Shown: positions 438 to 35,023 of the stretch, one piece after another
How positions within the stretch are numbered: position 1 is the first letter of the stretch
Layout of the letters: each line of letters opens with the position of its first letter
Source of the DNA: Candidatus Pacearchaeota archaeon
GTDB lineage: Archaea > Nanobdellota > Nanobdellia > Pacearchaeales > GW2011-AR1
DNA: 35,990 bases
Direction: 5' to 3'
Assembly (NCBI GenBank): GCA_018303845.1
Contig: JAGVXH010000007.1
Location: 1-35,990 of the forward strand
Notes under the pieces: generated by a model
What the model was told of the DNA's origin: nothing
What the model saw: the letters and a program-made list of their open reading frames with translations, nothing else
Database searches by the model: none
Translations under genes and position numbers: made by a program

Positions 438-516
438 AACCCCCTGGGGTTAAAGAAAATTACGGAGTAACTTTTCTTTAGAAATCTTTGATTTCGTGTC
501 CGAGCTTTCCAAAAGC
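438..516. repeat. Cluster of four hairpins between tRNA-Gly and the copy of its 3' end
   Basis: Nearly all of this stretch folds into four consecutive inverted repeats. They are AACCCC-CT-GGGGTT (438-451); a 12-bp stem with loop GGA and one bulged C (452-479); GAAATC-TTT-GATTTC (481-495); and GCTTT-CCA-AAAGC (504-516). Three have three-base loops. There is no ORF. The cluster fills the space between the tRNA and the repeated tRNA 3' end, so it may be the content of a very small insertion. Confidence 0.75.
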
Positions 517-521
517 GAAGG

Positions 522-540
522 TCGATTCCCGTATTTTGCA
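522..540 (+). repeat. Second copy of the tRNA-Gly 3' end (att-like direct repeat)
   Basis: Nineteen bases are identical to 410-428, i.e. the T loop, the 3' T-stem strand, the 3' acceptor strand and the discriminator. The copy sits 112 bp downstream in the same orientation. No other tRNA part accompanies it. This is the geometry left by integration at a tRNA 3' end, but the intervening DNA is only about 93 bp and encodes nothing. Confidence 0.85.
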
Positions 541-13290: not shown

Positions 13291-13310
13291 CAAAACGACT
13301 AGTCGTTTTG
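13291..13310. terminator. 20-bp perfect palindrome over the MBL gene stop codon
   Basis: CAAAACGACTAGTCGTTTTG is its own reverse complement, and the TAG stop of the MBL-fold gene (13299-13301) is at its centre. It lies between two convergent genes and could form a hairpin in either RNA, so a bidirectional terminator or 3'-end stabiliser is plausible. A protein-binding site is the alternative. No T-tract follows. Confidence 0.5.
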
Positions 13311-28371: not shown

Positions 28372-28480
28372 GTCAATCTCTAGGAAAAGCAAAGCTTTTC
28401 CGTCTCTCTAGATGCAAAACATCGTCTCTCTAAAAAATTCAAAGAATTTTTGTCTCTCTAGGAACTCCGTTCCGTCTCTA
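28372..28480. repeat. Array of different hairpins separated by GTCTCTCTA
   Basis: Linkers GTCTCTCTA occur at 28402-28410, 28424-28432 and 28452-28460, with variant ends at 28374-28382 and 28474-28480. Between them are four inverted repeats of unrelated sequence: GGAAAAGC-AAA-GCTTTTCC (19 bp), GATG-CAAAA-CATC (13), AAAAATTC-AAA-GAATTTTT (19) and GGAAC-TCC-GTTCC (13). Spacer lengths alternate 19, 13, 19, 13, so the period alternates 28 and 22 bp. The last linker contains the antiporter's TAG stop codon. Confidence 0.85.
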
Positions 28481-30226
28481 GTAAAGCAATCTATGAATCC
28501 CCTTCAAATGTTCCAAATGCTTTTTCTTCGCCAACTTCAAATTCCCAAAATTCCCACGATGAATAATCCCAGCAAGCTCTCTCCCCGCCAAAATCTTCGG
28601 AGTCACAACATAGTCAGCCCCAGCCTCATACAACTTCAGCGTCTCACTAATTCGACCACCCGTCACAATAATCTTAGCTTTCGGAGCCAGCTTCTTCACC
28701 TTCTTCAATAAAAACATCGTCTGCTCATAATCAGGAATCGTAGAAATAACGAGCTTCAACTTCGTCATATCAATCTTATCAAGCATCTCCGGACTACAAA
28801 CATCCCCATAAACACAAGCAATTTTCTTAGCCATCAAGACCCCAATTATCTCAGGATTATAATCAATAACCAACAATTTATCTTGTTTAGAAAGCAACTC
28901 TTCCATCAAAGCCCCACCCATCCGATGCGACCCAACTAGCAAAATTTCCTTATCAGTTTTACTCTTATATTCTAAAACTTCACGAATCGGCAAGAACCCC
29001 AAGCTCTTTATCGGATAACGAAAAAAAGTATACAATCCACTTTTATACTTAATCAGATAAGGAGTAACTGACATTGTAATAATCGTAGCGAGAACAATAG
29101 TCGAAAAAAATGAAGCATCAAAAACTCCAGCCGTAAGACCAATCCCGCCGATAATCAAAGAAAATTCAGATAATTGCGCGATAGAAACCGCCGTCAAAAA
29201 ACTAGTTCGTGGCTGGTATCCGGTAATCCGAAGTAAAATCAAAGTAACAATTGGCTTCACAAAAAAAGCACCAACAAGCAAAGCGCTAAGCAAAACCAAT
29301 CGACTTCCAACTCCAACAAAAACAAGTTGCATCCCAAGAGCAACAAAAAACAAAATCGCAAAGAAATCACGAAGCGGAGAAATCCTAGACTCTAACTCCA
29401 ACTTAAACGGACTATTAGCAAGACTAACTCCAGCAATAAACGCACCAATCACAATCGAAACCTCAGCAAGGTAAGCCATAACAATAAAGAAAAATAAAAC
29501 AGCAAGAGCACACAAAAACATAAACTCATTAGACTGCGCCGCAAAATTAAACAGTCTATTCAAAACAAACTTTTGCAACAAAACAGCAACGAGCAATATC
29601 AATCCCAATTTCATAAAAGCAATAACTAGTGGAGCAACCGCAAAACTCCCACTCGTAAAAATAACAATAGCAATAATCGCAATCAAATCCTGCAACAACA
29701 AAATTCCTAAAATCAATCGACCATGAAGAGTGACAAGTTCATTCCTATCCGCAAGCAACTTAACATCAACCATAGTAGAACTAAAAGCCAAAATAATCCC
29801 GACATAAGCAGCCTGCAAAGAAGTCAACCCCAAAAAATTCACACAAAGCAAACTAATCCCAAAAATAATCCCAACCTGCAAAATCCCAATCAACGCAATC
29901 TTTTTCAAATTAGCCTCGCGAATTTTATGAAAAGAAATCTCTAAACCAGCAGTAAACAATAAAAAAGCAATCCCAATTTCTGAAAACGCATTAATCAAAT
30001 CCATTCCCTTAACAACCCCAAAAACAAGTGGACCCAAAACAAGTCCAGTTAAAACATATGCAGGAATCAAAGGTTGCTTCAATGTTCGCGCGACAAAAGC
30101 AAACATAGCAGACAAAATCAGAATCACAGCAATATCAAAAATTATAACTTCACTCGCTGGCAACGCTCCAATATGTCCCGCAAAACCATCCACAGCCTGA
30201 GCAACATTCCCGGTCAACCAATTCAT
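28478..30226 (-). CDS. KefB/CPA2-type cation:proton antiporter with TrkA-N domain
   Basis: A 582-residue membrane protein with about 12 helices (residues 25-400) of the monovalent cation:proton antiporter-2 family: PLIPAYVLTGLVLGPLVFG, FLLFTAGLEISFHKIRE, and LAFSSTMVDVKLLADRNEL with a transport-site aspartate. The C-terminal Rossmann TrkA-N domain (about 425-560) has VGSHRMGGALMEELL and LLVIDYNPEIIG, typical of NAD-regulated K+ efflux systems. A TATA box CTTTTATAAATAT (30246-30257) is centred 26 bp upstream. The ion is probably K+ or Na+; not decidable here. Confidence 0.92.
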   Translation of the reverse strand: MNWLTGNVAQAVDGFAGHIGALPASEVIIFDIAVILILSAMFAFVARTLKQPLIPAYVLTGLVLGPLVFGVVKGMDLINAFSEIGIAFLLFTAGLEISFHKIREANLKKIALIGILQVGIIFGISLLCVNFLGLTSLQAAYVGIILAFSSTMVDVKLLADRNELVTLHGRLILGILLLQDLIAIIAIVIFTSGSFAVAPLVIAFMKLGLILLVAVLLQKFVLNRLFNFAAQSNEFMFLCALAVLFFFIVMAYLAEVSIVIGAFIAGVSLANSPFKLELESRISPLRDFFAILFFVALGMQLVFVGVGSRLVLLSALLVGAFFVKPIVTLILLRITGYQPRTSFLTAVSIAQLSEFSLIIGGIGLTAGVFDASFFSTIVLATIITMSVTPYLIKYKSGLYTFFRYPIKSLGFLPIREVLEYKSKTDKEILLVGSHRMGGALMEELLSKQDKLLVIDYNPEIIGVLMAKKIACVYGDVCSPEMLDKIDMTKLKLVISTIPDYEQTMFLLKKVKKLAPKAKIIVTGGRISETLKLYEAGADYVVTPKILAGRELAGIIHRGNFGNLKLAKKKHLEHLKGIHRLLY

Positions 30227-34178: not shown

Positions 34179-34200
34179 ACGGATTACTCAAGTAATCCGT
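34179..34200. terminator. Hairpin spanning a stop codon
   Basis: ACGGATTAC-TCAA-GTAATCCGT, a perfect 9-bp stem with a 4-base loop. It contains the TAA stop (34184-34186) of the secretion-ATPase-like gene. Same placement as the palindrome at 13291-13310, so a 3'-end or terminator role is plausible. Confidence 0.5.
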
Positions 34201-34993
34201 AAGCCGTCGCTTTCTTAATCACAAATCTAGAACCAACCATTTCCGAAATCACAGCGTTAATAGAAAATCCCTCAAGGCTCGCCCTAAACACACCTTCTAG
34301 TAACGGAATATGTGTCTCATCAGCAACCCTATTCAAAACTCCAAGAATTTCTTTGGCACTCAAAACAATCCGTGTCCTTTGTTTTTGCCCAGCCCGAATA
34401 ATCATCAACTCTTTCCCCTCACCCATGCACTCAATTGTTGAAACACTTGGGTCATTAAGCAATGGAGAAATCTTGCCATAATCTCCCTCGGCATCTATTG
34501 CGCCCTCGCTCATGATCATAGGTGAAATCATTACATCACTAGGTTCTTCAACTCGAATTGGCGGCGCAATCTGAACAGCTTGTCTCGGAGCACCAACCTG
34601 CCTAACCTGCCTAGGTGGCATAACAACCTGTTTCGGTGGCATAACAACCTGTCTAACTTGAATCGGTGGCATAACAACCTGCTCCGGAATTACCCTAGCA
34701 ACCCTGTCCCCCGTATTCATCTCTCTAACAACTGGCTCAATCGGTGCAACTAATTTACTCATATCCCTCTTGACAATTTTAGGCTTAACTTCAACATCCT
34801 TCATGGCCGGAGCAATACTGTCCATCCCCATCGAAGCCCTCATAACATTCTCCGAAACCTTCGGAACAAAATCGCTGTCAACAACAAACTTTTCACCGTA
34901 TTCAAATTCTTTCTCACGAATAGTCTGCACAATAGTCAAAACAAACTTTTTCACAAACGGATGCATTGAAATCAAAGAAGTCTCTTCATCCAT
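34184..34993 (-). CDS. Lone N-terminal domain of a type II/IV secretion ATPase-like protein
   Basis: A 269-residue protein. The N-terminus is helical; the middle (about 90-150) is a Pro/Val/Gln/Met-rich linker with repeated QVVMPP and QVRQV units. The C-terminal about 95 residues (YGKISPLLNDPSVSTIECMG, LSAKEILGVLNRVADETHIP, INAVISEMVGSRFVIKKA) resemble the N-terminal domain of GspE/PilB/archaellum-type ATPases. The ATPase domain itself (Walker A and B) is missing. GGGGGA lies 7 nt before ATG 34993; ATG 35008 is the alternative. Second gene of a pair with the coiled-coil gene. Confidence 0.65.
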   Translation of the reverse strand: MDEETSLISMHPFVKKFVLTIVQTIREKEFEYGEKFVVDSDFVPKVSENVMRASMGMDSIAPAMKDVEVKPKIVKRDMSKLVAPIEPVVREMNTGDRVARVIPEQVVMPPIQVRQVVMPPKQVVMPPRQVRQVGAPRQAVQIAPPIRVEEPSDVMISPMIMSEGAIDAEGDYGKISPLLNDPSVSTIECMGEGKELMIIRAGQKQRTRIVLSAKEILGVLNRVADETHIPLLEGVFRASLEGFSINAVISEMVGSRFVIKKATAYGLLE

Positions 34994-35023
34994 AACAAAG
35001 TCCCCCATAAAAATCTCTGATTT

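Follow-up and report, generated by a model that had tools for sequence, protein, structure and literature searches.

The end of an antiporter gene in a Pacearchaeota MAG (a tiny marine archaeon; assembly ~80% complete) is followed by a row of four perfect hairpins with different stems, separated by a short sequence that is repeated exactly. How does such a row arise, and what keeps its pairing perfect? The locus bears on a standing question, the origin and upkeep of perfect RNA hairpins, since a genome with many hairpins of different age at comparable sites would offer a direct natural test of the template-switch model. We analyzed a 35,990-nucleotide stretch of this genome (the window; the genome is called G000), in which the array lies between two convergent genes.

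The window array is composed of four hairpins with stems of 8, 4, 8 and 5 bp, loops of 3, 5, 3 and 3 nt and spans of 19, 13, 19 and 13 nt, joined by identical copies of GTCTCTCTA. An earlier sequence-only reading had given these linker, stem, loop and spacer figures, and all of them hold when the sequence is read again. On the plus strand the order is TCTCTA / GGAAAAGCaaaGCTTTTCC / GTCTCTCTA / GATGcaaaaCATC / GTCTCTCTA / AAAAATTCaaaGAATTTTT / GTCTCTCTA / GGAACtccGTTCC / GTCTCTA(G). Read on the antiporter strand, the stop TAG-AGAC is followed by GGAACggaGTTCC, TAGAGAGAC, AAAAATTCtttGAATTTTT, TAGAGAGAC, GATGttttgCATC, TAGAGAGAC, GGAAAAGCtttGCTTTTCC and TAGAGA, and then by the flank TTGACTTGGGCAACTT. 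Because the final CTA (28478-28480) is the stop codon of the minus-strand antiporter, the array starts at the end of this gene. Inspection by eye of the minus strand shows no T-run immediately after the array.

Table 1. Coordinates of the window array and its neighbors, of two stop-codon hairpins in the window, and of related arrays in G000 and in the sister species G015
Feature	Position	Strand	Remarks
Neighbor ORF, 106 aa	27982-28302	+	family unknown
Conserved distal flank AAGTTGCCCAAGTCAA	28361..28376		minus: TTGACTTGGGCAACTT; also after 12-bp hairpin at antiporter end in congener G015
Window array, G000	28377-28480		strict detector
Partial linker TCTCTA	28377..28382	-	gene sense: TAGAGA; distal end of array
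Hairpin 1	28383..28401		GGAAAAGC-aaa-GCTTTTCC, 8 bp
Linker GTCTCTCTA	28402..28410	-	minus: TAGAGAGAC
Hairpin 2	28411..28423		GATG-caaaa-CATC, 4 bp
Linker GTCTCTCTA	28424..28432	-	
Hairpin 3	28433..28451		AAAAATTC-aaa-GAATTTTT, 8 bp; loop and inner pair as in hairpin 1
Linker GTCTCTCTA	28452..28460	-	
Hairpin 4	28461..28473		GGAAC-tcc-GTTCC, 5 bp
Partial linker GTCTCTA	28474..28480	-	ends in the antiporter stop codon (TAG on minus)
Na+/H+ (Kef-type) antiporter	28478..30226	-	PF00999 and TrkA_N; window array is its 3' flank
Stop-codon hairpin, metallo-beta-lactamase-fold gene	13291..13310	-	CAAAACGA-ctag-TCGTTTTG; downstream arm copies last codons inverted
Stop-codon hairpin, gene 34184-35008	34179..34200	-	ACGGATTAC-ttga-GTAATCCGT
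Array, G000	L138:17587-17694		strict detector
Array, G000	L142:159-227		strict detector
Array, G000	L138:3369-3467		looser scans and inspection
Array, G000	L138:11950-12085		looser scans and inspection
Array, G000	L148:9590-9700		looser scans and inspection
Array, G000	L262		looser scans and inspection
Array, G015	L153:13389-13452		strict detector
Array, G015	L154:10005-10123		looser scans and inspection
Array, G015	L156:10339		looser scans and inspection
Array, G015	L308:3617-3723		looser scans and inspection

The window array is far beyond chance. GTCTCTCTA occurs three times in it (0.16 expected in the window), a count that no shuffle reaches, and the summed end-to-end pairing of the four units is 25, compared with a maximum of 14 in 200,000 unit shuffles. 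Matches at the Rfam 15 gathering score in the window are tRNAs only, the segment 28300-28520 gives only chance-level matches, and Tandem Repeats Finder does not detect the array. Internally it is built as a tandem duplication of a 50-bp unit made of hairpin A, linker, hairpin B and linker, with 35 nt at 77% identity. Within this period all linker bases are identical, while 11 of 19 bases agree between hairpins 1 and 3 and 3 of 13 between hairpins 2 and 4. Hairpins 1 and 3 differ by four two-sided (compensatory) pair changes without a single mismatch, and so display the multi-base compensatory stem change that template switching can produce. The spacers had been called unrelated in the sequence-only reading; each is indeed a distinct perfect hairpin, but the duplication and the 11 shared bases leave them not wholly so.

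We surveyed 400 kb of the same genome, about 40% of it, together with stretches of its relatives, and find about a dozen arrays in G000 and G015 that combine variable perfect hairpins with array-specific linkers of 7-9 nt (Table 1). The strict detector, defined by three hairpins with like linkers, yields nothing above shuffle level in the remaining relatives, nor in 413 kb of bacterial loci, and next to none in shuffles. With looser chain detectors, AT-rich chains arise by chance in large numbers, and we therefore counted only arrays with like linkers or a strong score; we are less sure of the L262 array, whose stems have 3-4 bp and which was read by eye. As the array detectors favor perfect hairpins, they account for part of the scarcity of G-U pairs.

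Read on the G-rich strand, most linkers by eye follow the pattern G-R-N-(N)-R-G-Y-T (e.g. GAAAGGCT, GGTGGCT, GGTGGTT and GAGAGGCT), of which the window linker TAGAGAGAC is an outlying purine-rich variant, and GRGGYTTGG terminates many arrays. The linkers are array-specific, since GTCTCTCTA itself is not reused elsewhere: the search for dispersed GTCTCTCTA arrays that had been proposed returned seven further copies in the genome, none beside hairpins, and only one other paired match among 378 genomes of the class (G064). The broader proposal, other arrays with short linkers between inverted repeats, was borne out in the same genome and in its congener. At L156 of G015, two identical adjacent units (CACgaaGTG-AACCCCC) are followed by one with an enlarged loop, as a recent tandem duplication would leave. 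In the literature on DPANN hairpin repeats we found nothing relevant. The window array is best explained as a member of a lineage-specific Pacearchaeota DNA repeat class, in which a short perfect hairpin and a linker of 7-9 nt are repeated in tandem.

Most arrays start at the stop codon of genes on the minus (G-rich) strand, and two of them, the lysS array (L138:3385) and that at L138:11950, extend into the end of the coding sequence. The RNase P RNA gene of G000, assigned with the archaeal model RF00373 at 55.7 bits (E 9e-15), under the Rfam gathering score, holds a multi-hairpin insert of ~140 nt between model positions 257 and 258. One short hairpin occupies this site in most of the 13 matching genomes of the genus, a separate row with the constant linker CTTTAGAG is found in G010, and a three-hairpin row in G004. 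These separate expansions in G010 and G004 indicate that hairpin rows arise repeatedly at this tolerated site.

Hairpins or arrays are present in both G000 and G015 at the ends of the antiporter gene, of a 229-aa gene (L142) and of a 212-aa gene (L153), with different stems and linkers. By eye, either species has five hairpins at the L153 gene end, and they share no stem; the stop-codon hairpin of the L142 gene is largely shared. At the antiporter end G015 carries a 12-nt exact inverted copy, which is absent from G000, G008 and G003. G008, about equally close, has no arrays or hairpins at these three gene ends. Loss of the inverted-repeat character in relatives had been named as a test of the sequence-only reading; the character is kept with wholly different stems at orthologous ends, though other congeners are without arrays.

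Perfect hairpins that straddle a stop codon number 14 in G000 (4.4 in shuffles), and 14 of 14 belong to genes on the minus strand, which holds 68% of the genes. With strand defined by local GC skew, G000 and G015 together have 22 such hairpins in 558 G-rich-strand genes (7.0 expected) and one in 244 C-rich-strand genes (4.0 expected). A share of 22/23 on the G-rich strand has p ~0.003 under the gene ratio, a bias that is based on these 23 hairpins. Their upstream (5') arm lies mostly in coding sequence, and the last codons reappear in the downstream arm as their reverse complement. The exact inverted copies expected of template switching are thus seen in the stop-codon hairpins, as distinct from the four hairpins of the window array. 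The strand bias is likewise that expected of a replication-linked process, with the G-rich strand taken as the leading strand, which is probable from GC skew and gene orientation. The polarity of the stop-codon hairpins fits a nascent strand that folds back when the gene end has just been copied in sense direction. Near stops, G-U and A-C pairs are balanced, without G-U excess, in small counts. The GC skew of these genomes is extreme in its own right, with plus-strand values of -0.2 to -0.5 over tens to hundreds of kb (contigs C2, C4, C6 and C7 of G000, C3 and C4 of G015, C2 of G008) and genes mostly on the G-rich strand.

We compared computed folds of the arrays as DNA and as RNA. In the window array, the four-hairpin form is the minimum-energy DNA fold of both strands, whereas the sense RNA has an alternative fold that is better by 13 kcal/mol and retains 8 of the 25 pairs. 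Across seven arrays most array pairs are kept in the DNA fold; in the sense RNA fold at most about half of them survive in the window, L142, L148 and L154 arrays, and the RNase P, lysS and L153 arrays do form as RNA. RNA folding z-scores are -3.5 and -3.6.

Several further repeats and gene ends were noted along the way. The lysS gene of G000 (L138:3394-4953) has a C-terminal tail (..ESKTPDDSKTKSSERLKK) encoded by array hairpins, and the ends of its congeners differ. A second hairpin family adjoins tRNA genes, in the order hairpin, GGAA..TTCC hairpin, GTGTCCGA, hairpin, GAAGG (window 448-530; L132, L135, L145, L149 and L151 of G000). Its linkers are nearly constant and its stems vary with compensation; the exact pattern has 13 genome copies, all on the plus strand, with a few in congeners, and several copies lie between partial duplicates of tRNA 3' halves. 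A third dispersed family is marked by a TTCCAC loop or a terminal TTTCTTTTTtctAAAAAGAAA hairpin and has variable stems (L143:7886-7975, L151:9037-9144 and L132:121-240 of G000; L163 and L164 of G008). Linker-only G-rich repeats (CCAAACCC)n, telomere-like GGGGGTTT on the opposite strand and possible G-quadruplexes, occur in G000 at L137:880, L137:5943, L136:14690 and L139:9545, and most adjoin stop-codon hairpins. G024, of the same order, has a multi-hairpin family with variable stems (L191:7695-10347, L187:16140, L190:19474), two copies of which have the linkers GCACA and AAGTGC. The contig L068, labelled Candidatus Dependentiae, is probably a mis-binned archaeal one: its antiporter has 68% identity to that of the Pacearchaeota, and a pheS-like start comes after it.

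On balance we think it somewhat probable that the arrays stem from recurrent replication-linked fold-back copying (template switching) together with tandem duplication, wherever extra hairpins are tolerated. Growth would take place where added sequence is tolerated, above all immediately after a stop codon if the gene lies on the G-rich strand, which is probably the leading one. At such a gene end the nascent strand would fold back and copy its own just-made sequence, giving a perfect hairpin in which the last codons recur, reverse-complemented, as the downstream arm. The hairpin would then promote slippage and thereby tandem duplication of hairpin-plus-linker units. Further template switches may copy one arm onto the other, creating a new stem sequence with pairing still perfect, while linkers would escape arm copying and stay alike within an array. 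An RNA function would be dispensable for these steps. As the survey covers 40% of an assembly that is ~80% complete, the detectors favor perfect stems and the leading strand is assigned from skew and orientation, we offer this mechanism as the best inference. It would imply that RNase P RNA and gene ends are repeatedly expanded by such copying, and it would warn that covariation alone is no proof of RNA function. More speculatively, and with considerable doubt, one may envisage an active, strand-specific process that repeatedly writes arbitrary perfect hairpins, with a linker particular to each array, downstream of genes and within structural RNAs, so that the repeat class is defined by form, with possibly a dedicated enzyme or a missing repair step. 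The Rad50 zinc hook, considered as a differential repair gene, gave weak sub-threshold matches and no clear pattern with array presence.

The main rival to fold-back copying is selection at the RNA level, in which a row of 3'-UTR stem-loops shields the mRNA from 3' exonucleases, acts as a terminator or uses the purine-rich linkers to bind a protein, the stems drifting freely by compensatory mutation while the linkers are conserved. The location at 3' gene ends and in an RNA gene, RNase P RNA, would suit this, as would the position behind stops conserved between G000 and G015, the compensatory changes between units, the folding z-scores and the formation of the RNase P, lysS and L153 arrays as RNA. 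Yet an RNA function would not predict that stop-codon hairpins are nearly confined to G-rich-strand genes; the transcribed-strand RNA prefers another fold in the window, L142, L148 and L154 arrays, a G-U over A-C excess near stops is absent (in small counts), the linkers vary between arrays and G008 is without arrays at the same gene ends. We consider RNA-level selection possible but rather unlikely as the principal cause; it and fold-back copying can act together. The sequence-only reading had suggested fold-back synthesis or selection on structure only. This pair of options finds partial support, and the inverted arm copies at stop codons, the 22:1 strand bias and the DNA fold lean toward the former.

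Mobile palindromic elements, accumulated at tolerated sites as REP/REPIN sequences moved by a RAYT-type Y1 transposase or as MITE/RPE-like inserts, would account for the many loci, the insertion-like gain in RNase P RNA, the further dispersed hairpin families of G000 and a constant tag beside a hairpin, which recalls GTAG-tagged REPs (PMC3733652). The copies, however, have no common stem sequence, units seem duplicated in place (the 50-bp period in the window, the identical neighbors at L156), dispersed copies of GTCTCTCTA with a hairpin are lacking, and the Y1 transposase (PF01797) was not found in the array carriers G000 (~80% complete), G015 and G010, whereas G014 and G009 carry several; this origin we judge unlikely. 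A constant repeat with variable spacers of regular length also calls to mind a CRISPR-like or integron attC-like array, with the linkers as repeats and the hairpins as captured units. CRISPR arrays have repeats of ~24-48 bp, unrelated and non-palindromic spacers, and cas genes; here the repeat has 9 nt and differs between arrays, the spacers are self-complementary and 13-19 nt long, and the arrays are sited at numerous stop codons and within RNase P RNA, which makes capture highly improbable. Hardly more credence is due to chance in AT-rich intergenic DNA or to an assembly artefact: single hairpins of this size show no excess in the window over random sequence, but the shuffle tests and the recurrence of this class, in conserved contexts, in a second, separate genome speak against both.

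Among known systems, Rickettsia palindromic elements and the cyanobacterial STRR repeats in rnpB are short palindromic or heptanucleotide repeats found within genes and RNase P RNA; they are sequence families, whereas the present hairpins share form and not stem sequence. REPs owe their mobility to RAYT transposases. The GTAG-tagged kind consists of small hairpins that bear a constant tag (PMC3733652); like our arrays, these are intergenic, may cluster and pair a short tag with a small perfect hairpin whose loop has 2-4 nt. Members of a REP family, however, have their stem sequence in common, while here the stems vary from unit to unit and each array has its own linker; a Y1 transposase was not found in the array carriers. 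The hairpin elements of sponge mitochondria likewise come in multiple copies, at times tandemly arranged, between genes and in rRNA genes, independently in each lineage, but their conservation is the opposite: stems are conserved and loops variable (PMC2800124), whereas here the stems vary and the linkers are conserved within an array. Borg tandem repeats (PMC9879509) share fast evolution, independent origins and an archaeal context; the abstract of that work describes them as direct repeats and does not mention variable hairpins with constant linkers. Template switching is described as a process that can produce a perfect stem in a single event and keep it perfect through compensatory changes of several bases (PMC8794818; Monttinen and Loytynoja 2022), and quasipalindrome mutation in E. 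coli is strand-biased (PMC7202029). Perfect inverted repeats, multi-base compensatory stem change and strand bias are all features of our hairpins as well. Template-switch hairpins have been described mainly as single ones in rRNA and microRNA genes, whereas here they would form tandem rows with a constant linker at many gene ends of one genome.
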